Part shown: piece after piece, positions 6,355 through 35,442 of the stretch
Numbering within the stretch: the first letter of the stretch is position 1
Layout: each line of letters starts with the position of its first letter
Source of the DNA: Lachnospiraceae bacterium
Lineage (GTDB): Bacteria; Bacillota; Clostridia; Lachnospirales; Lachnospiraceae
Reading direction: 5' to 3'
DNA: 48,763 nucleotides
NCBI GenBank assembly: GCA_028706005.1
Contig: JAQWCI010000002.1
Coordinates: forward strand, 1 to 48,763
Notes under the pieces: generated by a model
The model's database searches: none
What the model saw: the letters and a program-made list of their open reading frames with translations, nothing else
What the model was told of the DNA's origin: nothing
Made by a program: the position numbers and the translations under genes

Positions 6355-8148
6355 ATGAAATATGAAATGACTACAGTGATCTGGGTACTGGTGGCCACTG
6401 CGCTTGTCTACTTTATGCAGGCGGGTTTTGCCCTGTGTGAGGCGGGTCTCACCAGAGCCAAGAATACCGGCAACATTCTCATGAAGAACATGATGGATTT
6501 CTGCATAGGGACTCCGTGCTTCTGGCTTGTTGGTTTCGGTATCATGTTCGGGGGCCTTGGCCCTGTGATCGGGAAATTCGATCCGCTTATAAGAGGTGTG
6601 TATGACTCGACAAACAGTGTCGTGCCACAGACGATGCCGCTCTGGTGTTATGTAATATTCCAGACAGTATTCTGTGCAACAGCTGCGACAATTGTTTCAG
6701 GATCGATGGCAGAGCGCACTAATTTCAAGGCTTATTGTGTATATTCGGCTGTTATTTCCCTGTTCGTTTATCCTGTAAGCGGACACTGGATCTGGGGCGG
6801 TGGCTGGCTTGCAACACTCGGTTTCCATGATTTTGCCGGAAGCACCTGTGTACACATGGTCGGTGGAGCGATTGCCTGTCTTGGAGCTGCCATGCTCGGA
6901 CCCCGTATCGGTAAATACGGCAAGGACGGCAAAGCCCGTGCTATTCCAGGCCACAATCTTACGGCCTGTGCACTCGGTGTTTTCATCCTCTGGTTCTGCT
7001 GGTTCGGTTTCAACGGCGGCTCAACTGTAGCAATGAATTCTGATGCGGCAGCTGATACGGCTTCACTTGTTTTCATGAACACTAACCTTGCAGCGGCTGT
7101 CTCAACATGTGTGGCAATGATATTCACATGGTTCCGTTATGGCAAGCCTGATGTGTCAATGACGCTCAACGCGGCTCTCGCAGGTCTTGTTGCCATCACG
7201 GCTCCCTGCGATTGTGTAAGCCCTGTCGGCGCTTTCTTTATCGGACTTGTGGCAGGCGTACTTGTTGTCTTCAGTGTTGAATTCTTCGACAATGTCGCTA
7301 AGATCGACGATCCTGTCGGTGCTGTTTCCGTACACATGATGAACGGAATCTGGGGCACGATCGCTGTCGGCCTGTTCTCAACAGGAGCTGATGGCGTCGG
7401 CAAAGGACTGTTCTACGGCGGTGGTTTCCGTCAGCTCGGTGTCCAGTGCCTCGGCTTTGCAAGTGTCCTTGCATATACACTGATTGTAATGTTCATTGCG
7501 TTCAAGATCATTGACAAGACTATCGGTCTTCGTGTCCCGGCCCAGGTCGAGATCGACGGACTTGATTACCATGAGCACGGACTTGTTTCGGCTTATTCAG
7601 GTTTTGCCATTCAGGATGTCACTGACATGAATATTGATGCCAATGAGAACACAGATCTCGGCGAGGATGATTTCGGTAAGGCCTCAGAGGCTCAGAAGAA
7701 TGCCGCGGTCAAGGTCGTCAGCAAGGAAACAACAGGTGTGGCAGGAACAGTGACTCCTGTGGGTGATCTGGTAATGCCTGTGAACTACGACACAGGTATG
7801 CATAAGGTTTCCATAATCTGCAGACTCTCAAGTTTTGACCTGCTCAAGAAATCGCTCAATGAACTCGGTGTCACAGGCATGACGATGACACAGGTCATGG
7901 GCTCCGGACTCCAGAAGGGCTCTACTTCCAAGTACCGTGGCGCTATCGTCGATTCAACACTCATCCCGAAGGTTAAGGTCGAAGTCATTGTTTCGAGGAT
8001 CCCTGTACAGAAGGTCATCGACGCGGCTAAGAAAGCTCTCTACACCGGGCATATCGGTGATGGCAAGATCTTTGTTTACAACGTCACACATGTTGTAAAA
8101 GTCCGCACCGGCGAGGAAGACCTCGACGCACTGCAGGACGTGGAATAA
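6355..8148 (+). CDS. amt: Ammonium transporter with C-terminal PII (GlnB/GlnK) domain
   Basis: Inner-membrane ammonium channel fused to its own regulator. Residues 1 to about 400 are an Amt/Mep channel of about 11 helices with the twin pore histidines (His167 in CVHMVGG, His327 in VSVHMMNG). A charged linker of about 80 residues follows, then a PII domain from about Met482: KVSIICR, LGVTGMTMTQVMG, the T-loop GSTSKYRGA, IPKVKVEV and TGHIGDGKIFV. Gln39 and Lys40, Tyr46, Lys58 and Lys90 equivalents are kept; the uridylylated Tyr51 is replaced by Val532, so UMPylation control is not expected and ATP/ADP/2-oxoglutarate sensing is more likely. GAGGAGG precedes the start. It sits behind asnB in the nitrogen block. 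Confidence 0.95.
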   Translation: MKYEMTTVIWVLVATALVYFMQAGFALCEAGLTRAKNTGNILMKNMMDFCIGTPCFWLVGFGIMFGGLGPVIGKFDPLIRGVYDSTNSVVPQTMPLWCYVIFQTVFCATAATIVSGSMAERTNFKAYCVYSAVISLFVYPVSGHWIWGGGWLATLGFHDFAGSTCVHMVGGAIACLGAAMLGPRIGKYGKDGKARAIPGHNLTACALGVFILWFCWFGFNGGSTVAMNSDAAADTASLVFMNTNLAAAVSTCVAMIFTWFRYGKPDVSMTLNAALAGLVAITAPCDCVSPVGAFFIGLVAGVLVVFSVEFFDNVAKIDDPVGAVSVHMMNGIWGTIAVGLFSTGADGVGKGLFYGGGFRQLGVQCLGFASVLAYTLIVMFIAFKIIDKTIGLRVPAQVEIDGLDYHEHGLVSAYSGFAIQDVTDMNIDANENTDLGEDDFGKASEAQKNAAVKVVSKETTGVAGTVTPVGDLVMPVNYDTGMHKVSIICRLSSFDLLKKSLNELGVTGMTMTQVMGSGLQKGSTSKYRGAIVDSTLIPKVKVEVIVSRIPVQKVIDAAKKALYTGHIGDGKIFVYNVTHVVKVRTGEEDLDALQDVE

Positions 8149-23824: not shown

Positions 23825-23856
23825 AAAAAAGGAGACCTGGTGGTCTCCTTTTTTTT
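23825..23856. terminator. Bidirectional intrinsic terminator after telA
   Basis: GGAGACC/GGTCTCC stem with TGGT loop, flanked by AAAAAA and TTTTTTTT (23825-23856). Closes the decarboxylase-XpaC-TelA unit. Confidence 0.93.
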
Positions 23857-24076: not shown

Positions 24077-24532
24077 ATGTTTGCATTATTCTTTGTTTTA
24101 TGGATCATATTGAACGGTCGGGTAACTCTGGAAATCGTTCTCTTCGGACTTGCGATATCTGCGGCAATATGTGTGTTTGCTGTCAGAATAGTAGGATACA
24201 GGCCGGAGACATCTGTTCGTATCCTTCGCAACATTCCATTATTGTTCCTTTATATCCTGAATCTCATAGTTGAGATATTCAAGGCGGGAGCGGCAGTCAT
24301 GTCGGTCGCGCTCAGAAGATCAGCACGCCCGGATCCTGTTATTGTTGAGTTCAGATCCGGACTTGAAACGAATCTTCAGAATGTCCTTCTCGCGAACTCG
24401 ATCACTCTTACTCCGGGAACATATACACTGTTCCAGGATGGTGATCATTTTGTTGTGCACTGTCTTCGCAGAGAATATGCTGAGGGAATGCAGGATTCCA
24501 GTTTTATAAAACTCCTGAGGAAGATCAAATAA
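24077..24532 (+). CDS. mrpE: Mrp/Mbh-type antiporter subunit E
   Basis: 151 aa membrane protein of the MnhE/MrpE (MbhA) family. Two or three hydrophobic segments (FALFFVLWIILNG, VLFGLAISAAICVFAV, IPLLFLYILNLIVEIFKAG), then the conserved soluble tail with LQNVLLANSITLTPGTYTL. In Mrp complexes it helps assemble the Na+-translocating module. It opens a ten-gene operon whose E-F-G-first order matches Mbh clusters of archaea rather than the classical Bacillus A-to-G order. SD is weak (AGGCG). Confidence 0.93.
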   Translation: MFALFFVLWIILNGRVTLEIVLFGLAISAAICVFAVRIVGYRPETSVRILRNIPLLFLYILNLIVEIFKAGAAVMSVALRRSARPDPVIVEFRSGLETNLQNVLLANSITLTPGTYTLFQDGDHFVVHCLRREYAEGMQDSSFIKLLRKIK

Positions 24533-24533
24533 A

Positions 24534-24878
24534 ATGACAATAGAAGATTGTTACAATACATTGTATCTGTCAGTGACAATAGGAATGCTGATACTTGTCG
24601 GTGCGATGGTAATACGCTCTATTATCGGACCGCGTATCACAGACAGGATATTGTCCATAAATATGCTGGGAACAATGGTCATCTGTACAATAGCCATACT
24701 TTCGCAGTATCTGGGTGAATCGTATCTTGTCGATGTCGCTCTTATATACGCGATGATAAGTTTTGCCACAGTTCTCATATTGGCAATCATGTTCCTGCCT
24801 GTAAAGCCAAAGGAGCCGAAATTCCCGGGATTTACACTTAAGAACGGGCAGGCGGCAGGGAAGGAGGCTGAAAAATGA
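24534..24878 (+). CDS. mrpF: Mrp/Mbh-type antiporter subunit F
   Basis: 114 aa, three membrane helices, MnhF/MrpF (MbhB) family. Conserved segment VIRSIIGPRITDRILSINMLGT, including the Arg-Asp-Arg stretch, then YLVDVALIYAMISFATVLIL. Subunit F lies in the small-subunit cluster thought to carry Na+. Begins 1 nt after the mrpE stop and overlaps mrpG by 4 nt (ATGA), so the three small subunits are translated together. Confidence 0.93.
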   Translation: MTIEDCYNTLYLSVTIGMLILVGAMVIRSIIGPRITDRILSINMLGTMVICTIAILSQYLGESYLVDVALIYAMISFATVLILAIMFLPVKPKEPKFPGFTLKNGQAAGKEAEK

Positions 24879-25273
24879 TATTTGAATGGATCCGTTTCTT
24901 TATTGTTGCAGCTCTCCTTATTGCGGCACTCATCAGTTTTGCCAGCGCAGTGTTCGGAGCGTACCGCTTCGGCTTTGTGATGAACAGAATGCACTCTGCA
25001 GGTATCGGGGACACGCTGGGTATTTTCTTTATTGTAACAGCGCTGTGTATTGCGTCAGGTTTCAATATGGATACGCTCAAGCTCCTCCTGCTGATATTCT
25101 TCATGTGGTTTACATCACCGGTCTCAACGCATTTTCTTGGGCAGGTCGAGTATTATACCAATCCTGATCTGTCAAAACATGTTCAGCGCATAGGCGGAAT
25201 GCTGGGCGATGAAAAGACTGAGGCTGAACTTAAGAAAAAACCGGATAAGGAGGCAGAGGATGGCGCTGACTGA
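24875..25273 (+). CDS. mrpG: Mrp/Mbh-type antiporter subunit G
   Basis: 132 aa, three helices, MnhG/MrpG (MbhC) family. Landmarks: GAYRFGFVMNRMHSAGIGDTLGIFF (the usual PDxxxRxHAxxxxDTLG motif in variant form) and FMWFTSPVSTHFLG. The charged tail after residue 100 (KTEAELKKKPDKEAED) is longer than usual and encodes the SD of the next gene. Overlaps the MbhD-like gene by 14 nt. Confidence 0.92.
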   Translation: MIFEWIRFFIVAALLIAALISFASAVFGAYRFGFVMNRMHSAGIGDTLGIFFIVTALCIASGFNMDTLKLLLLIFFMWFTSPVSTHFLGQVEYYTNPDLSKHVQRIGGMLGDEKTEAELKKKPDKEAEDGAD

Positions 25274-25583
25274 TGTTGTAAAGATCATATTGCTTGTTTT
25301 GCTTGTGGTTTGTGCGATCGCTGTCAATTTTACGAAAACACTGCTTCAGGCAGTCATAGTTTTTATGTCATACAGTTCTGTCATGTGCATAATCTGGGTG
25401 CTGATGGAGTCGCCTGATCTGGCGATAACAGAGGCAGCTGTCGGTGCCGGTATTTCAGGCGTGTTGTTCCTTCTGACACTTCGCAGGATCCGTTCTGAGG
25501 ATGACAGAAGAGAAGAGGAACGCAGAGCCAGCGGGAAATCAGACAAGGACGAACCGGATGGAGGCAAGTTTGAAAGTAGATAA
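25260..25583 (+). CDS. MbhD-like subunit (DUF4040; MrpA C-terminal segment equivalent)
   Basis: 107 aa with three helices; matches the DUF4040/MbhD segment that in classical MrpA is part of the large subunit. Key stretch VIWVLMESPDLAITEAAVGAGISGVLFLLTLRRI, with the ESPDxAITEAAVG motif carrying conserved acidic residues in the ion path. Start at 25260 chosen because GGAGG lies 6 nt upstream; earlier in-frame starts give a basic tail without similarity. The charged tail (about 80-107) ends in a stop codon that lies inside a perfect 14-bp hairpin. Confidence 0.85.
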   Translation: MALTDVVKIILLVLLVVCAIAVNFTKTLLQAVIVFMSYSSVMCIIWVLMESPDLAITEAAVGAGISGVLFLLTLRRIRSEDDRREEERRASGKSDKDEPDGGKFESR

Positions 25584-25652
25584 ATCTACTTTCAAACTAC
25601 GAGGTTGATGCTGCGCACAACCTCGAACCATTTATACGAGCGTTGCTCGTAT
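25568..25652 (+). repeat. Three tandem stem-loops spanning a stop codon inside the operon
   Basis: GTTTGAAAGTAGAT/ATCTACTTTCAAAC (25568-25597, 14 bp perfect, 2-nt turn over the TAA), CGAGGTTG/CAACCTCG (25600-25625), and ATACGAGC/GCTCGTAT (25634-25652). None has a U-tract. They fill the gap between the MbhD-like gene and the MbhE-MrpB gene, so they may define processing or stability segments rather than termination. Confidence 0.75.
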
Positions 25653-25685
25653 TGCGCCAAAAAAGGTCACAGCATGAGGTTAAGA

Positions 25686-26630
25686 ATGAGTAACAAATTT
25701 GCAAAATTCAGGAACTGGCTCGCCGGTGATTACGATCCCCTTAAGAATGTCCTCGATACGGATGAGACAGTAAGTGATTCCCGTGAGGAGATCAAGAAGG
25801 AAAACAGGAAGATCATTTCTGAAGTCGACGCTGAGGGAAGTACGCGGAGGCTTGAAAAGGCCGAGCAGAGAGGCTTTGATCTGGTATACAGGGTTATTGC
25901 GATAGTGAGCTGCCTTTTGCTCATAGGCGTTCTGCTATTTACGGTCGCACTGCTCCCGAGATACGGGGTAGAGAACCCTGAGTCGACAACAGTCGTGAAA
26001 CGCTATGTGGAAAGCGGACTCCAGGAGACGGGAGCCATCAATATAGTAGCGGGTATCATACTTGATTATCGTGCCTTCGATACGCTGGGAGAATCGCATG
26101 TTTTGTTTACGGCACTGATATGCGTAACTATACTTCTTCGTGCTGACAGTAAGAACCTTCGTACAAAATATGAGGATTTCTACACAATAAAACAGGTGAA
26201 GTATCACGATCTGAATAAAGACAAAATCATAAACAGAGTGGGAATGATACTTGTTCCCTGCATATTTGTATTTGGAATTTACGTTCTTCTGAACGGGCAG
26301 AACGGACCGGGCGGCGGTTTCTCAGGAGGTTCTGTTATGGGTGCCGGTCTTATCATAGGAACGGCGGCTTTCGGATACGAGAAGATGGACAGATTCATCT
26401 CGACAAAGACCGCAATGTGGATCACCTTTATTTCGCTGGCGTTCTACAGTTTTGCCAAGGGGTATGTATTCTTCACAGGCGCGAACGGTCTGGACAATCA
26501 TATCCCGAAAGGAATCCCGGGGGCGATACTGAGCGGCGGACTTATACTTCCTCTTGATATAGCAGTCGGCATGGTCGTTGCATGCACAATGTACGGGTTC
26601 TACAACCTGTTCAGAAGGGGCAGGACGTAA
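25686..26630 (+). CDS. mrpB: MbhE-MrpB fusion subunit
   Basis: 314 aa. Residues 1-70 form a charged cytoplasmic extension with no family match (DYDPLKNVLDTDETVSDS). Residues about 75-180 match MbhE, the end of classical MrpA: ETGAINIVAGIILDYRAFDTLGE. Residues about 195-314 are MrpB/MnhB: GQNGPGGGFSGGSVMGAGL, with Gln where most members have His in GHxxPGGGF. Together with the MbhD-like gene it replaces the MrpA C-terminal third. Start at 25686 has GAGG 6 nt upstream; ATG at 25674 with AAGGT is the alternative. Confidence 0.85.
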   Translation: MSNKFAKFRNWLAGDYDPLKNVLDTDETVSDSREEIKKENRKIISEVDAEGSTRRLEKAEQRGFDLVYRVIAIVSCLLLIGVLLFTVALLPRYGVENPESTTVVKRYVESGLQETGAINIVAGIILDYRAFDTLGESHVLFTALICVTILLRADSKNLRTKYEDFYTIKQVKYHDLNKDKIINRVGMILVPCIFVFGIYVLLNGQNGPGGGFSGGSVMGAGLIIGTAAFGYEKMDRFISTKTAMWITFISLAFYSFAKGYVFFTGANGLDNHIPKGIPGAILSGGLILPLDIAVGMVVACTMYGFYNLFRRGRT

Positions 26631-26633
26631 CCG

Positions 26634-26655
26634 GAAAATTGCATTCGCGATTTTC
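26634..26655 (+). other. Stem-loop between mrpB and mrpC
   Basis: GAAAATTGC/GCGATTTTC, 9 bp with one G-U pair and an ATTC loop, immediately before the mrpC ribosome site. No U-tract. Confidence 0.55.
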
Positions 26656-26671
26656 AGACCTGGAGGTAATC

Positions 26672-27052
26672 ATGTTATCAAATCTGGTCATAAATTATGA
26701 AGAAGCAGTTGCTATAGTTCTATTTGGCATCGGATTCACAACGCTCCTTTTCCAGCGCAATCTGGTGCGCAAGCTGATAGGCATGAATATCATGGACACC
26801 GGGACATTCCTTTTTCTTGCATCCATGGGATTCATAAACGGACGCAAGGCTCCGATAGTAGTAAATGGGGTGCAGGATACTGCGGCTTATATCAACCCTA
26901 TTCCGGCAAGTCTTGTTCTTACAGGTATTGTGGTCTCTGTTTCCGTCACAGCAATTATGCTGTCGCTGACAGTCCGCCTGTATCACAGGTATCACACATT
27001 GCAACTTGATGATATTTATGTTTTGTCAAAGCATCAGACGGAAGACCGCTAG
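26672..27052 (+). CDS. mrpC: Mrp/Mbh-type antiporter subunit C
   Basis: 126 aa, three helices, NuoK-like MnhC/MrpC (MbhG) family. Segments: GIGFTTLLFQRNLVRKLIGMNIMDTGTFLFL and PIPASLVLTGIVVSVSVTAIMLSLTVRLYHRY, where Pro-Ala-LVLTGIVV is the family hallmark. Start at 26672 with GGAGG 6 nt upstream. The subunit sits between the small-subunit cluster and the first antiporter-like subunit in known structures. Confidence 0.93.
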   Translation: MLSNLVINYEEAVAIVLFGIGFTTLLFQRNLVRKLIGMNIMDTGTFLFLASMGFINGRKAPIVVNGVQDTAAYINPIPASLVLTGIVVSVSVTAIMLSLTVRLYHRYHTLQLDDIYVLSKHQTEDR

Positions 27053-27055
27053 CAA

Positions 27056-27109
27056 AGCCAACCTGAGGAACAGGTTGGCTTGAAAGCTTTGGACTTAGTC
27101 CAAAGCTTT
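27056..27109 (+). repeat. Two tandem stem-loops between mrpC and mrpD
   Basis: AGCCAACCTG/CAGGTTGGCT (27056-27080, 10 bp, loop AGGAA) and AAAGCTTTGGA/TCCAAAGCTTT (27083-27109, 11 bp, loop CTTAG). Both perfect, both without U-tracts, placed as in the other gap at 25568-25652. Confidence 0.8.
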
Positions 27110-27149
27110 AAGACAGATGATATGCCGTTTGTTTTGGAGGCACACGAAA

Positions 27150-28646
27150 GTGACTAACAGTTTTATTACAAATTTTCCGCTCTTCACAATAGTACTGAGC
27201 CTTTTCTCAGGGCCTCTGTGCTATATGCTGAAGAGACGTATGGCCAGGTATTGGACTATAGGCCTTGAGTGCGGACTGATAGCTATGGTGTCAGCGGTGC
27301 TCTGGTATACGATGACGACTGGAAGCTCATTTACTTATGTAATGGGCGAGTTTCCGGCGCCCTGGGGCAATGAGATCCGCGCCGGAGTTCTTGAGGCTCT
27401 GATCGCTCTTGTTTTCCTGCTCGTAATGCTGTCATCAGTCATAGGCGGCAGCAAATATATCGATATAGATATAGATGAGAGCAAGATCAACCTCTACTAC
27501 ACGCTTATAAATCTTATGACAGCAGCCCTGATGGCGATGGTCTGGACGAACGATATCTTCACAGGATATGTTTTTCTTGAGATCCTGACACTGACGAGCT
27601 GCGGAATCCTGATAGTCCGTGAGATAGGAAGAACAACGCTGGCCGCGGTGCGATATATGATAATGAATCTGCTCGGCTCTGGGCTTTTCCTTCTGGGCGT
27701 CGTCCTGCTCTACGATGTGACAGGCAATCTTCTTATGGTTCCAATGCAGGAGGAAATTGCAAAACTCATCACGAACAGTCAGAACATGATGGCCATCACC
27801 ATGGGACTTGGGATCCTGACAATCGGACTCTGCATCAAGAGCGGGCTCTTCCCGTTCCATTACTGGATGCCTGATACATACGGCTGGGCCACTCCGACAT
27901 CAGGAGCTGTCCTGTCATCTCTTGTTTCAAAATGCTACATTTTCCTGCTGTTCAAGATTTACTACCGCGTGATAGGGATAGAGGTCTTTGAGCAGCTGCC
28001 GATAAGGAACATTCTGCTGGTGCTGGGCCTCATGGGCATGGTAGCGGGTTCTGTCTCGGCAATGAGGGCGAATAACATAAACAGGATGGTTGCCTTCTCA
28101 TCGGCGGCACAGATAGGTTACATATATATGGGAATAGGCATCGGCGGAAAGGTCGGCTACACAGCGGCTATGTTCCATGTCATGGCGCACGCCGTCACAA
28201 AGTCAACGTTGTTCCTGACAACTCCGCGCCTTTCAGATGTATCCGGAGGAAGTCTGTTGTTCAGGAACCTGCAGGGAAGCGGCATACGTGACAGAGCGGC
28301 CGGTGTTTATTTTTCAGTCGCCTCGCTGTCAATGATCGGCATTCCGATATTCGCAGGATTTTCGTCAAAACTTCTTTTCGCTGAGGCTGCAGTAGATTCG
28401 GGGAGCATGACAAAGATGGTGCTCGTGATGATAGCGCTTGCTCTCAGCTCGATGCTCAATGCGATTTACTTCATCCGTACCATGATAAGGATCTACCAGC
28501 CTGATACAACAGGAATCCGTGTCAGTGCGAAGCGTGTTTCTTATCAGATACCGATGATAATACTTACGGTCATGAACCTTGCACTTGGCCTGTTCTCATG
28601 GTACTTTGCGGGAATGATAGAGCAGGGACTTTCAATGTTCGGCTGA
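27150..28646 (+). CDS. mrpD: Mrp/Mbh-type antiporter subunit D (proton-conducting, ND5/ND4/ND2 fold)
   Basis: 498 aa, about 14 helices. Conserved TM5 glutamate in VFLEILTL (Glu144), TM8 lysine in CIKSGLFPFHYWMPD, and MNGIN-like loop around RANNINRMVAFSSAAQIGYIYMG. The TM7 lysine typical of the fold is Arg168 here (AAVRYMIMN). Start is GTG at 27150 with GGAGG 9 nt upstream; no good ATG is near. Position directly after mrpC and the YGWATPTSGAVLSSLVSKCY segment favour the MrpD/MbhH type. Confidence 0.9.
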   Translation: MTNSFITNFPLFTIVLSLFSGPLCYMLKRRMARYWTIGLECGLIAMVSAVLWYTMTTGSSFTYVMGEFPAPWGNEIRAGVLEALIALVFLLVMLSSVIGGSKYIDIDIDESKINLYYTLINLMTAALMAMVWTNDIFTGYVFLEILTLTSCGILIVREIGRTTLAAVRYMIMNLLGSGLFLLGVVLLYDVTGNLLMVPMQEEIAKLITNSQNMMAITMGLGILTIGLCIKSGLFPFHYWMPDTYGWATPTSGAVLSSLVSKCYIFLLFKIYYRVIGIEVFEQLPIRNILLVLGLMGMVAGSVSAMRANNINRMVAFSSAAQIGYIYMGIGIGGKVGYTAAMFHVMAHAVTKSTLFLTTPRLSDVSGGSLLFRNLQGSGIRDRAAGVYFSVASLSMIGIPIFAGFSSKLLFAEAAVDSGSMTKMVLVMIALALSSMLNAIYFIRTMIRIYQPDTTGIRVSAKRVSYQIPMIILTVMNLALGLFSWYFAGMIEQGLSMFG

Positions 28647-28674
28647 GCGTCAGATGGAATCGGAGTGAGAGAAA

Positions 28675-30117
28675 ATGCTTATACTTTGTTCTGTTTTATT
28701 CCCGATAATCGCGGGAGTCATAGCATCAAACGTCAAAACAAATACTCGCGCAAGGCATATTGCATATTCGCTGATCTGCGCGATCACGGACGTCCTTGTC
28801 ATCCTGGCGCTTTCCTCAAAGGGGAGCGTGACAGTGGTGAAGTTCTTTGAGAATGTGTCGTTCTCGTTTGCGGTCGATGACCTTGGCGTGTTCTTCCTGA
28901 TAGCGGTCATGCTTCTTTTTACCGCGGTGCTTTTCTACTCGTTTGAATACATGAAAATGGAGAAAAATGAAGAGCGTTTCTTCGGCTTCTATTTTGTGAC
29001 ATTCGGAGCGATGATCGCCATGTGCATGGCGGAGAATCCCGTCACTATGTATCTTTGTTTTGAACTGCTGACACTCCTTTCAGTTCCGCTTGTTCTGCAT
29101 GATGAGACAAAAGAGGCAGTGACAGCGGGCCTCAAGTACCTGTTCTATTCAATAGCGGGTGCTCTCATGGGGCTTCCGGCAGTATATCTTGTTTACAGAT
29201 TTGCCGGTGCAGCAGCTGATTTTACATACGGCGGATTTATCGATCCGTCAAAACTTGCAGGTCATGAGGGTGTTTTTCTTGCCTTTATCTTTATCGGCAT
29301 TCTTGGTTTCGGTACGAAAGCCGGACTTTATCCCATGCACGGATGGCTGCCGACAGCCCATCCCGCAGCACCTGCTCCGGCATCGGCACTCCTTTCGGGA
29401 ATAATTGCAAAGGCCGGTGTGTTCGCTGTGATAAGGCTTTTGTTCTACTCAGTCGGAACCGAAATCCTTCGGGGGACCTGGGTTCAGAACGCATTCATAA
29501 TCCTTGCAATGATAACGATCTTTATGGGTTCAATGACAGCTTTTCTCGAAAAGAACCTCAAGAGAAGGCTGGCGTATTCGACTATAAGCCAGATTTCATA
29601 TATTCTTCTCGGGATTGCTTTCCTTTCGGATGAAGGGCTGGAAGGCGGACTTATTCATGTTCTGTCGCACGCTTCGTCCAAGGCCTGCCTCTTCCTTTGC
29701 GCCGGAGTTTTTATTTACAAACTTGGAATAAGAAATGTAGAGGATCTTCGCGGTATAGGAAAGAGAATGCCGGTCACGCTCTGGTGCTTTACAATAGCAT
29801 CACTCTCGCTCATAGGAATTCCTCCGATGGGCGGCTTTATAAGCAAATGGGTAATCGGAAGCGCAGCTCTTGATTCCGGGATGGGCGCTTTATCAATACT
29901 AGCTCCGGTAGTTTTGATCGTTTCCGCTTTTATAACTGCGGGGTATCTGCTTCCGATCGTGATAGACGGATTCTTCCCGGGTAAAGATTATAAAGCCCCT
30001 GCAATTTCTGAGGAACCGTCAAAACTGATGACAATACCGATGATAGTTCTGTGTGCGGCATCAGTTATTATGGGCATCTGGGGCGTTAACATAGTGAACG
30101 CGATAATGAAATTCTGA
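28675..30117 (+). CDS. Second antiporter-like subunit (ND5/ND4/ND2 fold)
   Basis: 480 aa, about 14 helices. TM5 Glu in YLCFELLTLLSVPL, TM7 Lys154 (TAGLKYLFYS), TM8 Lys in FGTKAGLYPMHGWLPTAHP, so the whole half-channel set is present. The family is shared by MrpA, MrpD and complex I subunits NuoL/M/N; this copy is short and lacks a C-terminal extension. GGAGTGAGAG precedes the start. It follows mrpD by 28 nt and forms part of an extra trio of pump subunits not found in classical seven-gene Mrp operons. Confidence 0.88.
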   Translation: MLILCSVLFPIIAGVIASNVKTNTRARHIAYSLICAITDVLVILALSSKGSVTVVKFFENVSFSFAVDDLGVFFLIAVMLLFTAVLFYSFEYMKMEKNEERFFGFYFVTFGAMIAMCMAENPVTMYLCFELLTLLSVPLVLHDETKEAVTAGLKYLFYSIAGALMGLPAVYLVYRFAGAAADFTYGGFIDPSKLAGHEGVFLAFIFIGILGFGTKAGLYPMHGWLPTAHPAAPAPASALLSGIIAKAGVFAVIRLLFYSVGTEILRGTWVQNAFIILAMITIFMGSMTAFLEKNLKRRLAYSTISQISYILLGIAFLSDEGLEGGLIHVLSHASSKACLFLCAGVFIYKLGIRNVEDLRGIGKRMPVTLWCFTIASLSLIGIPPMGGFISKWVIGSAALDSGMGALSILAPVVLIVSAFITAGYLLPIVIDGFFPGKDYKAPAISEEPSKLMTIPMIVLCAASVIMGIWGVNIVNAIMKF

Positions 30118-30144
30118 TAAGTGTTCCTGAACGAGGCAACGCAT

Positions 30145-31668
30145 ATGTGGTTGCCATATGAGGCTATGATGAATTCATATTTTCTTTTACAACCTATGAC
30201 CGTGGCATTGATAGGGGGATTTCTGATGATATTCCTCCATTTTAAGAATGACAGGGTGCGCAATATTTATTCGGAAGTGATAGCTCTTGTCACAACGGTG
30301 CTCGTTTGGATAGCACTTATAAAGGCGGACGGGAGCGCTGTCACACTATATCGCTTCACATATGGATTTACGATATCATTTGGCGTAGACGGGCTTTCAA
30401 AATTATTTGCCGGAATGGTCTCATTAATGTGGCCATTCGCGCTGCTTTACGCATTCGAGTACATGAAAGACGATAAGCGCAAGAACGTGTTTTTCGCTTT
30501 CTATCTCATGACGTATGGCATCACGCTGGGCGTGTGTTTCTCTTCGAATATCACGACACTTTATGTTTTCTATGAGATGCTGTCACTTGTCACTATTCCG
30601 CTCGTATCACATTATGGCGATCATGAAAGCATGTATGCCGGCAGGAAATATGCGGCTTACACTATAGGCGGTGCATCGCTTGCTTTCTTCGCAGTCGTGA
30701 TTGCAACAGTATACGGAGGCGGTGGAAACTTTATATATGGCGGAAGCCTGGGAGCTGCAAGAGCTGCTTCAGGAAACACGATGAGCATGGGTATGCTGCA
30801 GATAGCATTCCTGTTCGGGTTCTTCGGTTTCGGCGCCAAAGCTGCTGTATTTCCGCTTCATGACTGGCTGCCGACAGCGTCTGTCGCTCCGACCCCTGTC
30901 ACAGCACTGCTACATGCGGTCGCTGTTGTAAACACAGGTGCTTTTGCTGTGATGAGGCTCACATGGTATCTGTACGGTGCTGATCTCATAAAAGGGTCAT
31001 GGGTACAGGCCGCATGTCTTATCGCTGCTGAGTTCTCACTTGTTTACGGAGCTGTCCAGGCACTGAGGGAGAGAAGATTTAAGAGAAGGCTCGCTTTCTC
31101 TACGATGAGCAACCTTTCATATATGCTGTTCGGAATCATGCTTCTTACTCCAATGGGGTATCTCGGAGGGCTGTCCCACATGCTGTTCCACGGTGTGATC
31201 AAGATGAGCCTGTTCCTCTGCGCCGGTGCTTTTATGCGCCAGACAGGCAAGAACTATGTATTTGAGATAAACGGAGTCGGCAGGAAAATGCCTGTGACTT
31301 TCATATGTTACACGCTTGGCGCGTTGTCACTTACCGGCATCCCGCTTTTCTGTGGATTCATTTCAAAGTGGACACTTATATCAGCAGGTGCGGATGAAGG
31401 CTCTGCGCTGGGCATTATCGGTGTTGTGGCACTCATTGTTTCAGCGTTCCTCTGCGCAATGTATACGCTCACAGTAAGTGTGAGAGCGTTCTTCCCAATG
31501 AAGGGAAAGGATTTTTATGCTGACGGAACCGAAGGCAGCGCAGTAAAGGAAGCGGGCTGGCAGATGCTCGTGCCTGTTGTGGTATTTACGATCGCAAATG
31601 TTTTGTTCGGGGTCTTCTCCGAACCGATAATGAGCTTTCTCACAAAGATTGCGGAAGGTGTGATCTGA
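30145..31668 (+). CDS. Third antiporter-like subunit (ND5/ND4/ND2 fold)
   Basis: 507 aa, about 14 helices. TM5 Glu in VFYEMLSLVTIPLV, TM7 Lys168 (YAGRKYAAYT), TM8 Lys in FGAKAAVFPLHDWLPTASVAPTPVTALLHA; the last stretch is closer to NuoL/NuoM-type subunits than that of its neighbours. Start at 30145 preferred because GAGG lies 8 nt upstream; a GTG at 30121 and ATGs at 30166/30169 are alternatives. Its stop shares one base with the next ATG, so translation is coupled. Confidence 0.85.
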   Translation: MWLPYEAMMNSYFLLQPMTVALIGGFLMIFLHFKNDRVRNIYSEVIALVTTVLVWIALIKADGSAVTLYRFTYGFTISFGVDGLSKLFAGMVSLMWPFALLYAFEYMKDDKRKNVFFAFYLMTYGITLGVCFSSNITTLYVFYEMLSLVTIPLVSHYGDHESMYAGRKYAAYTIGGASLAFFAVVIATVYGGGGNFIYGGSLGAARAASGNTMSMGMLQIAFLFGFFGFGAKAAVFPLHDWLPTASVAPTPVTALLHAVAVVNTGAFAVMRLTWYLYGADLIKGSWVQAACLIAAEFSLVYGAVQALRERRFKRRLAFSTMSNLSYMLFGIMLLTPMGYLGGLSHMLFHGVIKMSLFLCAGAFMRQTGKNYVFEINGVGRKMPVTFICYTLGALSLTGIPLFCGFISKWTLISAGADEGSALGIIGVVALIVSAFLCAMYTLTVSVRAFFPMKGKDFYADGTEGSAVKEAGWQMLVPVVVFTIANVLFGVFSEPIMSFLTKIAEGVI

Positions 31669-33539
31669 TGAGTATTCAGGGAATTTTTGTGGATGGTCTT
31701 ACGTTTCAGGTCGATGGGTTCAGGATTACATACGCGTTGATCACAGCGCTTATGTGGCTGTTCACGTCGCTGTTCTCAATAGAATATTTCAGGAACGAAC
31801 GTCACAACATGAGGCGCTATTGGGTATTCACGGCAATCACGTTCATTGCAACGGAGGGCGTGATGCTTTCCGGTGACCTCATGACGACATTTATCTTCTT
31901 TGAAATACTGTCGTTTACGTCGTTTGTGTGGGTCATTCAGGAAGAAACGACTGAGGCGATCCGCGCGGGATATACATATATCTTTATTGCGATCTTTGGC
32001 GGTCTTCTCCTTCTGATGGGGCTGCTTCTTCTCTATAATGCTGCAGGAACACTTTCATTCGCCGGACTTTCTGAGATATTCAGCGGCAAGTCAGAAGCGG
32101 TGTCAGGTCAGGTATATGCTGCAGGAATTCTGATACTCTTCGGGTTCGGTGCAAAGGCGGGTATGTTCCCGCTGCATGTGTGGCTTCCAAAGGCACATCC
32201 CGTGGCTCCTTCTCCTGCGTCGGCTCTGCTGTCAGGCGTTCTTACCAAGGTCGGTATTTATGGAATACTTATGACTTCACTCGAGGTCTTATCAGCTAAT
32301 CCGTCATACGGAGCGGTGATCCTTGTTCTTGGAACAATCACGATGGTACTTGGAGCTGTTCTTGCACTGTTTTCAGTGAATATCAAACGCACACTCGCCT
32401 GTTCCTCAATGTCGCAGATAGGATTTATTCTCGTAGGCATAGGCATGTATCATCTCCTTGTCGCGGCAGGAAACGGAGAGGGTGCTGCAACTGTACTTTC
32501 AGGGACTGTGCTGCACATGGTAAACCATTCGATGATAAAGCTCTGCCTGTTCATGGCATCAGGCGTTGTCCTTATGAAGGCAGGAACCGTGGACCTCAAC
32601 AGGGCACGGGGCTTCGGCCGCAGTAAAAATGCACTCAAGGTCGCGTTCGCTCTGGGTGCGCTCGGCATTTCAGGCGTGCCGGGATTCAACGGATATTTCA
32701 GCAAAACATTGCTCCATGAGGGCATTGTGACATATATAAATGCAGTAAATGCAAACGGGGCTTTGACAGGTGCGGATGGATCCGCGCTGGGCGGGCTGAC
32801 AGGAATCATCGTTGGTGCTGCTAATCTTCATGTGATAGAGTGGCTGTTCCTGATTTCGGGCGGACTCACTTTGGCGTACATGCTGAAACTGTTCATTGCG
32901 ATCTTTGTCGAGAAGAACAGCGATGCAGCTCTTCAGAAACAGTATGACAGCGACAGAAAAGGGATGAACGCTCTCAGCGCTTTCGTGATAGTCGGTTCAT
33001 CACTGTTTATGTTCATTCTTGGAATAAGATCCGTGGCAGAAAACCTGGCTGATTATATGATCAGGTCATTCAGCTCTGACGCGACATCGGTCTTCACGTT
33101 CGCACCATTTACATGGAGAAGCCTGCAGGGTGGGCTGATCTCACTTGCAATCGGCATACTGATATATGTGTTCATAGTGAGAAAAGTGTTTATAAAGAAT
33201 GGGCAATATGTGAATCTGTGGCCGTCAAAACTCGACCTGGAGGAAGCAGTATATCGTCCGCTTCTTACAGGAGTGCTGCCGCTTGTCCTTGGCACGGTCG
33301 CCAGAGTCATAGCATGCAGTCTCGACTATCTGATAGCCTTTGCAAGAGGCACAGTGCTGAGCGAGAGAAGACCGAGAACCGCTGAGGCAAGAAAGCGTTC
33401 TGAGAGAATTATGACTCTGCGTGAAGGAACAAATAATGTTGTAAGCAGGGTCGCGGAAAACTACACGTTCGCGATGATGATGGCATGCATAGGAATACTG
33501 GTGGTCCTGGGAACACTTGTTTTGATATTGGCACTGTAG
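31668..33539 (+). CDS. Fourth antiporter-like subunit with C-terminal extension
   Basis: 623 aa. Core of about 13-14 helices with TM5 Glu (FIFFEILSF) and TM8 Lys (FGAKAGMFPLHVWLPKAHP), but the TM7 Lys position is Thr103 (AGYTYIFIAI). After about residue 480 a helical extension (VFIVRKVFIKNGQYVNLWPSK, then DLEEAVYRPLLTG) and a final membrane helix follow, reminiscent of the lateral-helix tail of NuoL-type end subunits. It starts inside the previous stop codon and is the last gene of the operon; a terminator follows at 33578. Confidence 0.85.
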   Translation: MSIQGIFVDGLTFQVDGFRITYALITALMWLFTSLFSIEYFRNERHNMRRYWVFTAITFIATEGVMLSGDLMTTFIFFEILSFTSFVWVIQEETTEAIRAGYTYIFIAIFGGLLLLMGLLLLYNAAGTLSFAGLSEIFSGKSEAVSGQVYAAGILILFGFGAKAGMFPLHVWLPKAHPVAPSPASALLSGVLTKVGIYGILMTSLEVLSANPSYGAVILVLGTITMVLGAVLALFSVNIKRTLACSSMSQIGFILVGIGMYHLLVAAGNGEGAATVLSGTVLHMVNHSMIKLCLFMASGVVLMKAGTVDLNRARGFGRSKNALKVAFALGALGISGVPGFNGYFSKTLLHEGIVTYINAVNANGALTGADGSALGGLTGIIVGAANLHVIEWLFLISGGLTLAYMLKLFIAIFVEKNSDAALQKQYDSDRKGMNALSAFVIVGSSLFMFILGIRSVAENLADYMIRSFSSDATSVFTFAPFTWRSLQGGLISLAIGILIYVFIVRKVFIKNGQYVNLWPSKLDLEEAVYRPLLTGVLPLVLGTVARVIACSLDYLIAFARGTVLSERRPRTAEARKRSERIMTLREGTNNVVSRVAENYTFAMMMACIGILVVLGTLVLILAL

Positions 33540-33577: not shown

Positions 33578-33614
33578 CCTGAATGATCACGTATGATTGT
33601 TCAGGACTTTTTTT
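33578..33614 (+). terminator. Terminator of the Mrp/Mbh-type operon
   Basis: CCTGAATGATCA/TGATTGTTCAGG (33578-33605, 12 bp with two G-U pairs, loop CGTA), followed by AC and TTTTTTT. Confidence 0.9.
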
Positions 33615-33672
33615 AAAACTATTCGTATAAATATATAAAAAAATTCTTTCATATAAAGGATTGGTGGCAAAA

Positions 33673-35442
33673 ATGAAAAAATCTGTTACGTCCAGAAATA
33701 TCATACTTGAAGAAATGTTCAGAAAAGTCCTTCCGCAACAGATGCTGGCCGGACTTGTATTCACGCTCAACTCGCTGATAGATTCTCTTGTGACGAGCAG
33801 ATTTCTCGGATCAGATGCAATGGCGGCGCTTGGGTTCTATTCTCCGATTTCGAATATCCTGTACTTGTGTTATGTGTTTATAACAGGAACGCAGATATTG
33901 TGCGGCAACAGTATAGGAAGAGGAAAAGCGAAGGAAACCGTATCAATATTTTCCACATGCGCTCTTATTCTTACAGTGTTTGCTGTTATCAGCAGTGCAG
34001 TTCTTTTTATACTGCCATCTTAGATAGCATCCACGCTGGGCGCGAGCGGGAACTGCCATACAATGCTTACTGCATATATGCACAATGTGTCATTCGGAGT
34101 GATCGGAATGATGCTGTACGCACTGTTCATTTCTTTTCTGCAGATGAATGGGCGGGATGATGTCCTCAAGATCAGCCTTGCAGTAATGATCATATCAAAC
34201 CTTGCACTGGATCTCTTTTTTGTGGAGGTCATGAAGAGTGGAATGGGTGGTCTGGGCCTGGCTACTTCAATCAGCAACATCCTTGCAATGGTCACAGCTC
34301 TTTTCGGAGTCCTCAATTCGGAGAAACACAAACCTGTTGTTTACCTGCATGCCGGCAATTATGACTTTGCCTGTCTGCCTGAAATGGCAAAACTGGGATC
34401 AACTCAGGTCGCCTTTAACCTTGCAATAGCTTTCCGCTCTTTTGCGCTCAATATACTTCTGATGAAATCAGGAGGTACAGATGCGGTAGCTGTCATGACA
34501 GTGCTGAATATGGTAAGTTGTTTTATCGGTATGATACCGACCGGAATCGCCGGAACGGTGCTTATGCTCGGCAGTATTTTTAATGGCGAGAAGAACCGCA
34601 GGGCAATAGAGGAACTGTATGTATATGCAATGAAAATTGCGATGATAATGTCGGCCGTCGCGATTTTGCTCACCATAATATTTGCACCGCAGCTGGCTGC
34701 AGTATTCTATTCGAGCGGTACACTGACATGGTCATTGACTATTCCCATGCTAAGGATATTCATATGGTTTGTTGTTTTCTCATCGGTAAACAGCATTATT
34801 CAGAAGATACATCAGAGCCAGGGAGAGGTGCTGCTGAGCAATGTTTTGTCAATCACAGAGAATCTTATTATTGTCGCCGGAGCTTTTGTGCTGTCAGCTG
34901 CGATGGGAACTAATGGAGTGTGGCTTGCTTATCCTGTGGGAAACATAATTAATCTCGGCATTATGTTCCTGATGATATGGATTGGGATAAAGAGAAGACC
35001 AGGGACAATAGCTGATCTGATATCTGTCGGCTCCAGGAACGAAGTGCCTGCGGAAAATACTTATACAAGAGAGATCCCTTCCATGGAGGATGTAGTAAAA
35101 ACATCCGAGGAAATAATGCAGTTTTGCAGAGAAAGAGGTCTGGGACAGGAAACATGTTATATGTCAGCATTGAGTGTTGAAGAAATGGCAGGTAATATTA
35201 TCCGCTATGGTTTCGTTAACAAGCGCAAGCACTCAATAAACGTATATATGATAGTAGATAATGGTGCGCTGACATTGAGGGTAAGAGATGACTGTATGAT
35301 GTTTGACCCTGTTCAGTACATGGAACAGTTCAACCAGACTGATAAGACCAGGAACATGGGCATAAAACTTGTCGCTGATACAGCAAAGGAAATGAAGTAC
35401 CAGCGACTGATAGGATTCAATTACCTGACAATATCATTTTAG
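33673..35442 (+). pseudogene. MATE efflux transporter fused to GHKL ATPase domain, interrupted by an in-frame TAG
   Basis: One reading frame of 590 codons with a single TAG at 34021-34023 (codon 117). Before it: the MATE N-terminus FTLNSLIDSLVTSRFLG. After it: the rest of the MATE fold (LDLFFVEVMKSGMGGLGLATS, MIPTGIAGTVLMLGSIFNGEKN). From about 35080 an HATPase_c_2/anti-sigma-like domain follows, with ALSVEEMAGNIIRYGF and VRDDCMMF. A CAG to TAG change would explain the break. TAG is an ordinary stop elsewhere in this window, so recoding is unlikely; an ATG at 34063 or later could still yield a shorter protein. Start at 33673 has GGTGG 5 nt upstream. Confidence 0.8.

Follow-up and report, generated by a model that had tools for sequence, protein, structure and literature searches.

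The DNA considered here is a contig of 48,763 nt from a Lachnospiraceae bacterium (JAQWCI010000002.1, assembly GCA_028706005.1). We call it the window; it is a whole contig (C37) of a genome of 2.41 Mb that comes in 233 contigs and is 96.6% complete. At positions 24077-33539 the window carries ten genes, all on the + strand, which according to the list of open reading frames and the Pfam domain calls follow one another as E-F-G-MbhD-(MbhE+MnhB)-C-D1-D2-D3-D4, that is, an Mrp/Mbh-like set in which C is followed by four antiporter-like subunits. The features of the locus are the following.

23825-23854, no strand assigned: upstream terminator-like hairpin of 13 pairs between a TelA-like gene and mrpE (reported on the - strand, with a T run seen by eye on the + strand)
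24077-24532, + strand: MrpE-like, 151 aa, with LTPGT and VVH by eye (PF01899, E 1.4e-27)
24534-24878, + strand: MrpF-like, 114 aa, with D37 and N43 (PF04066, E 5.6e-12)
24875-25273, + strand: MrpG-like, 132 aa (PF03334, E 8.9e-18)
25260-25583, + strand: MbhD-like, 107 aa from the ATG at 25260 (a longer frame runs from 25209), with E58 (PF13244, E 8.3e-21)
25605-26630, + strand: MbhE+MnhB fusion (EB), 341 aa from a TTG or 318 aa from the ATG at 25674, with the motif DYRAFDTLGE (PF20501, PF04039)
26672-27052, + strand: MrpC/NuoK-like, 126 aa from the ATG at 26672 (the frame opens at 26582), with D42-T43-G-T-F46 (PF00420, Oxidored_q2, E 1.7e-20)
27117-28646, + strand: D1, MrpD/NuoN-like, 509 aa, with E155, K241, K272 and K418 (PF00361, E 7.9e-44)
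28675-30117, + strand: D2, 480 aa, with E130, K215, K246 and K391 (PF00361, E 1.6e-58)
30121-31668, + strand: D3, 515 aa, with E152, K240, H265, N271 and K416 (PF00361, E 1.2e-48)
31668-33539, + strand: D4, ND5/HyfB-like with a C-terminal extension, 623 aa, with E79, K163, K194 and K346 (PF00361, E 2.2e-53)
33578-33605, + strand: terminator-like hairpin 3' of D4, from the hairpin scan

Proton_antipo_M was matched in all four chains D1 to D4 (E-values of 7.9e-44 to 1.6e-58), and E, F, G, B, C and the MbhD and MbhE parts matched their Pfam profiles above the curated cut-offs. The spacing between the ten genes, given the starts chosen, goes from overlaps up to about 90 bases, and the start positions of MbhD, EB, C and D1 are uncertain. 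We considered the two hairpins as weak evidence for the boundaries, because the scan overall gave 12 terminator-like sites, barely above the 9.0 (standard deviation 3.3) found in shuffles. No redox gene was seen elsewhere in the window, where most open reading frames were judged by eye from lists and not scanned with profiles. The first-pass annotation of this DNA had described a redox-free Mrp/Mbh-like set made up of one cation module and four subunits of the proton-channel type, and the domain calls, the gene order and the conservation reported below bear this description out.

As relatives we considered the genome contigs matched in an alignment of D3, at least 563, of which the best 80 were used; these are titled Lachnospiraceae, Clostridiales and similar, many of them with rumen or gut names. 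Together with 8 loci fetched by place they made 88 and, since six of the same contigs had been taken twice, 82 distinct loci. All genes present had the same order in 82 of 82 loci, and all ten genes were found in 51, the remainder running into contig ends. Precisely, the order by frame start was strict in 49 of the 51 complete loci, while in L090 and L119 the F and G frames open at different places. A finding named beforehand as refuting the description above, a redox set next to this operon in another genome, was sought in the 82 distinct loci and not encountered: no frame in them (flanks of at most 10 kb, many contigs being shorter) had as its best match at 1e-3 the profile of the NiFe large subunit, ND1, the NuoB-like, the 30-kDa or the ferredoxin subunit. 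The NiFe large-subunit, NuoB-like and ND1-like neighbours that mark group 4 [NiFe] hydrogenases gave no hit beside the operon in any of these stretches. Among 31 genomes searched, D4 was present at an identity of at least 46% in 8 of the 19 of the genus (the window's own included) and in 1 of the 12 others of the order; G005 and G030 gave weak D4 matches only, at loci that are Mbh-type and Hyf-like.

The residues of the proton channels are present in all four antiporter-like subunits of the window, namely the helix-5 Glu, the helix-7 Lys, the helix-8 Lys (His in D3) and the helix-12 Lys. The exceptions among distinct relatives are gaps, Asp for Glu in 2 of 82 D3 and 1 of 80 D4 chains, and Gly for the helix-8 Lys in 1 of 80 D4 chains. 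D3 has the helix-8 His of ND5 and MrpA with the Lys replaced by Asn: H265 is kept in 82 of 82 and N271 stands at the Lys position in 81 of 82, and this position is Lys in six other four-module loci. A His in place of the helix-8 Lys is described for ND5-type chains (PMC7419157, section 7). As the residues of four proton routes are conserved, an unusual H+:cation ratio is possible.

In the cation module, E58 of MbhD aligns with E69 of MBH and is kept in 55 of 55 distinct relatives. D131, D136 and E140 of MbhE are each kept in 57 of 59 (two gaps), and D37 of MrpF in 52 of 53, the other one having Glu.

We considered a locus as group 3 Mrp according to the definition in PMC8415708, by which mrpA is absent and mrpD alone is present, at times in several copies. 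In the window there is no mrpA gene, and the MbhD and MbhE parts are encoded apart from the four MrpD/ND5-like genes. We read the ten genes as encoding one stand-alone group-3 Mrp-type cation/H+ antiporter, and we give this reading a probability of roughly 0.68. In such a machine E, F, G, MbhD, MbhE, MnhB and C would form the cation module, the ion being probably Na+, D1 would adjoin C, and D2, D3 and D4 would lengthen the arm of a single complex, so that a single cation site would be served by four pairs of H+ half-channels coupled in series. The inflow of H+ along the proton motive force would drive the cation outward without electron transfer. In the electrostatic scheme of PMC7419157, a cation beside the helix-5 Glu of MrpD triggers charge switches along the arm; the two-module Mrp is given two H+ per Na+, and it is said that the scheme can be extended to complex I-like enzymes with three or four modules. 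Carried over to four modules, it would predict up to four H+ per cation, and the export of Na+ might continue up to a sodium motive force about four times as large as the proton motive force.

Several observations weigh against the antiporter reading or against parts of it. At the MrpF position of the published Asp35, called invariable in PMC7419157, the window has Asn (N43), as do 53 of 53 distinct relatives; the residue is Asp in the solved Mrp and MBH chains and in the genome's own Mbh, and Asn, Gly or Gln in distant redox-free sets where it can be read. In MrpC the sequence Asp-Thr-Gly-Thr-Phe stands in place of the classical Ser-His-Gly-Ala-His, so that both His are absent, and this pair (H37 and H40) is the cation ligand in the Mrp structure (PMC7419157). 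The replacement is itself conserved, D42 in 59 of 60 distinct relatives (one gap) and F46 in 58 of 60 (one Tyr, one gap). The window Asp aligns with D37 of MBH and E37 of MBS, neither of which has the full His pair, and both of these residues are named as functional (PMC7419157, PMC7684303). With these altered sites in C and F, the ion and the activity may differ from those of classical Mrp. Most of the compared relatives have some 65 N-terminal residues (by eye two helices) that are missing from the window D4; this is probably no assembly error, because L041, a separate record with 96.2% identity over 3713 aligned columns, has the same start. (The D4 start is disturbed also in L034.) The bracing segment speaks against a single arm of four modules as well. 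In both MBS and complex I, the length of the bracing helix corresponds to how many modules there are (PMC7684303), and NuoL is lengthened in 2M complex I (PMC6606698). We measured the D4 C-terminal segment from the conserved (D/N)-x-E...(Y/F) motif to the chain end and found 95-157 residues (median 124) in four-module loci (65 of the 84 with a D4 frame), 116-163 (median 124.5) in three-module loci (6 of 10) and 101 in the window, hence no lengthening in four-module as compared with three-module loci, and a longer brace was discarded as support for the single arm. Complex-I-type redox genes (NuoB-like plus ND1) occur in 3 of 15 four-module genomes, namely the window's own, G003 and G007. Finally, PMC7684303 states that the H+ and Na+ stoichiometry has not been determined for Mrp, MBH and MBS.

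The alternative that survives best, though we think it improbable, is that D1 and the small subunits make up a complete one-module antiporter, while D2 to D4 form a second complex or act singly and are merely co-transcribed. In fact, Pyrococcus has a stand-alone mrpEFGBB'CD whose proton subunit is single (PMC8415708), and the D4 segment of unchanged length would suit this arrangement. However, the first, middle and last subunit types stay together in three- and four-module operons, and the order of the genes is fixed in the 82 distinct relatives.

It is less probable again that the architecture is as we propose and the traffic is not, K+ or Ca2+ being exchanged, or the machine running in reverse, with a Na+ gradient expelling H+. 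The altered C and F sites would allow this, and the Mrp of Thermomicrobium moves Ca2+ (PMC5703873). The genome has an rnfC (by eye) and an rnfD-type gene on contig C16 (L121 1-3752), directly followed by a threonine-synthase-like gene (by eye), and on contig C183 (L122 1228-1710) a two-hairpin ring subunit of a V/A-type ATPase with LPGTQ, QQA and ETYAIL, which we take to be the Na+-binding pattern. This context is compatible with a Na+ economy and as such counts in favour of our main reading. Rnf and the V/A ATPase may also make a Na+ gradient on which a reversed machine could run. Against this alternative, the carboxylates that MbhD and MbhE contribute to the proposed Na+ path are conserved, and at a high H+:Na+ ratio reversal would by simple arithmetic sustain only a small proton gradient. 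The stretch of C16 that was seen does not contain rnfG, E, A or B.

The first-pass annotation had also offered that the set might be the membrane arm of an enzyme with its redox subunits encoded at another place, and for this the whole genome was considered. Its fifth Proton_antipo_M gene lies on contig C69, whose end overlaps contig C53 by 175 bases with one mismatch. The operon joined in this way (L008 1-4380 and L006 4955-11313) has a NiFe large subunit, a HypA-like gene (by eye), a 709-aa ND5-like chain, MbhD, MbhE+B, C, ND1, a NuoB-like subunit, a ferredoxin and a 30-kDa subunit, with E, F and G recognised by eye and by weak BLAST matches; from its genes it is an Mbh-type [NiFe] hydrogenase with a membrane arm of its own. 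A citrate-synthase-like gene (by eye) lies upstream of it. The sole NiFe large-subunit match of the genome (51.6 bits, over the first 69 of 508 positions) is the one in this operon, as are its sole ND1 and sole NuoB-like matches, so NuoH and NuoB partners as in complex I, 2M included, were found nowhere else in the genome. NuoB-like (PF01058) and ND1 (PF00146) matches are both absent from the same 12 of 15 four-module genomes, and from 8 of the 9 that are at least 95% complete; among the ten three-module genomes a NuoB-like match occurs in five and an ND1 match in two. An RnfD-type match was obtained in 21 of 25 carrier genomes and in 11 of the 15 four-module ones, being absent from four, one of which (G011) is 75% complete.

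An arm serving an Ech/Mbh, complex I-like or Rnf-coupled enzyme in this way is the least probable of the alternatives and quite unlikely, for although MBH and MBS have related arms that are attached to redox modules (PMC7684303), the own genome has a hydrogenase and rnfC-rnfD, and G003 and G007 have NuoB-like and ND1-like genes too, the hydrogenase is equipped with its own arm, most carriers lack the partners, even RnfD is missing in some, and 0 of the 82 distinct loci had a redox homologue in the fetched stretch, no search having been aimed at partners from unrelated families. A redox partner elsewhere in the genome was rejected as the principal explanation on the grounds of the self-armed hydrogenase and of the 12 carriers of 15 without partners. 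The interpretation of the first-pass annotation is thus supported as to the redox-free set of four modules, and not supported as to the membrane arm of a redox enzyme encoded elsewhere. An inorganic carbon pump of the DAB type was also rejected, as there is no DabA (PF10070) match in the genome (the control matched in 2 of 14).

The group-3 antiporter has several known counterparts. The stand-alone mrpEFGBB'CD of Pyrococcus furiosus (PMC8415708) has the shared genes in the same order and likewise no energy-input module, and differs in having one proton subunit where the window has four. In the group-3 locus of Nitrospira alkalitolerans, said to hold all of mrpA-G (PMC7784846), mrpD is followed by two NuoM/NuoL-like genes, read there as extra mrpA/mrpD-like genes, so that it has three modules, or four if its mrpA has an ND5-like part. 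The clusters mrpFGBCDDAE of Microbacterium and mrpCD1D2EFGAB of Aphanothece (PMC5703873) share with the window more than one MrpD-like subunit and have no redox genes named in the passage cited; by gene names they have at most three antiporter-like subunits, in another gene order. MBH and MBS of Pyrococcus furiosus have a Na+ module and an MrpD-like subunit as the window does, and among solved structures C, MbhD and D1 of the window match MBS best (6u8y) and F and D4 match MBH best (6cfw); however, both have a redox arm and one or two antiporter-like subunits (PMC7684303), whereas the window set is redox-free with four. A duplicated middle antiporter-like subunit is shared with 2M complex I, which is part of a redox enzyme with a lengthened NuoL (PMC6606698), neither of which applies to the window. 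Classical Mrp (A. flavithermus, B. pseudofirmus) shares subunit types and channel residues, and the best solved match of D3 is MrpA (7qru_A), but it has two modules, an MrpA fused to the MbhD/E-like part, and the His pair in MrpC. The remark of the first-pass annotation that it knew of no described complex of this makeup needs narrowing. Group-3 Mrp systems with several MrpD copies are already known (PMC8415708, PMC5703873), and the Nitrospira locus may already have four modules; what stands is that in the literature searched (open-licence papers) no complex stated to have four modules was found.

To place the four modules, we surveyed 196 genomes of Clostridia, 50 of which matched Proton_antipo_M at 1e-15, and fetched 20 regions of 18 genomes. 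Ten of these regions were redox-free with three modules (L130 with the first chain in two frames), six were redox-free with four modules (L126 with the small subunits beyond the contig end, L131 with the third chain in two frames) and four were redox-linked systems. Across the phylum, the D3 profile at 1e-60 matched 51 of 199 genomes, and regions were fetched from 20 of the 51: 13 were redox-free with three modules (L148 and L156 rearranged), two were redox-free with four (L147 and L160), four (L149, L150, L155 and L164) were cut short or without the small subunits in the stretch, and one (L165, G279 C9) had a 1296-aa double chain with two matches and ND1-, NuoB-, NuoI- and NuoD-like genes alongside, without E, F or G. 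Redox-free three-module versions are widespread in the phylum. In L148 and L156 an EB-type part, C and the first subunit precede E-F-G-MbhD, a second EB-type part and the middle and last subunits. In the three-module operon of L139 (G222 C3), the second and third chains both belong to the last (D4) type and are sisters. Other phylum genomes have frames of 1287-1306 aa, long enough for two antiporter-like chains.

When D4 was run by tblastn against plasmids, 272 records matched, of which 40 were listed and three opened (H1, H3 and H7); the three come from Peptoclostridium, Halomicrococcus and Rubrobacter, and on each the set is redox-free and has three antiporter-like genes, as far as the incomplete gene tables tell. 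The clostridial and plasmid three-module sets have the E-F-(G)-MbhD/E-B-C parts as in the window (G is not listed for Halomicrococcus, nor C for Rubrobacter), and differ from it in having one middle subunit instead of two and, often, MbhE and MnhB as separate genes.

In a tree of 77 antiporter-like chains the first subunits group with D1, with NuoN nearby, and the last subunits with D4. D2 and D3 form one clade (100/99) in which a D2 half and a D3 half are sisters, and the middle subunits of three-module sets adjoin it. A second tree, of 78 rows, has the D2+D3 clade again (100/98) and places the fourth-module chain of L131, L132 and L160 with two L149 chains in another clade (100/96). The L131/L132/L160 clade lies beside the middle subunits in the first tree and beside the last subunits in the second, the deep nodes being weak in both, and since neither tree joins it to D2+D3, at least two separate origins of the four-module form are probable. 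In the lineage of the window, the fourth module was probably gained by duplication of the middle chain, giving D2 and D3.

The flanking genes were discarded as a hint to function, as the neighbours are not conserved across the 51 complete distinct loci, many of which have short flanks: the TelA-like gene, the frame above it and the first MATE frame were matched in none, a decarboxylase-like gene in one and the second MATE gene in two. The MATE-like transporter (by eye) lies at 33661-35442, its first frame stopping at 34021-34023 and its second opening in the same reading frame at 34063; the second frame ends in a histidine-kinase-like ATPase tail (by eye). At 6355-8148 of the window an ammonium transporter and a P-II-like tail share a single frame (by eye).

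More broadly, and as a conjecture that we hold well short of an even chance, these systems could be geared by their number of modules, as redox-free machines in which one to four proton modules are built onto a cation unit of one kind; the form with four, which is common in rumen Lachnospiraceae, would then move about four H+ per cation, its fourth module having been gained at least two times, convergently with 2M complex I. A natural set with differing module numbers and no redox chemistry would allow the ratio to be measured against the number of modules. Among the titles that a literature search listed on the ion economy of rumen and gut Lachnospiraceae, none was about Mrp in them. The antiporter would belong to this ion economy, and a gearing of four H+ would help a fermenter whose proton motive force is small.

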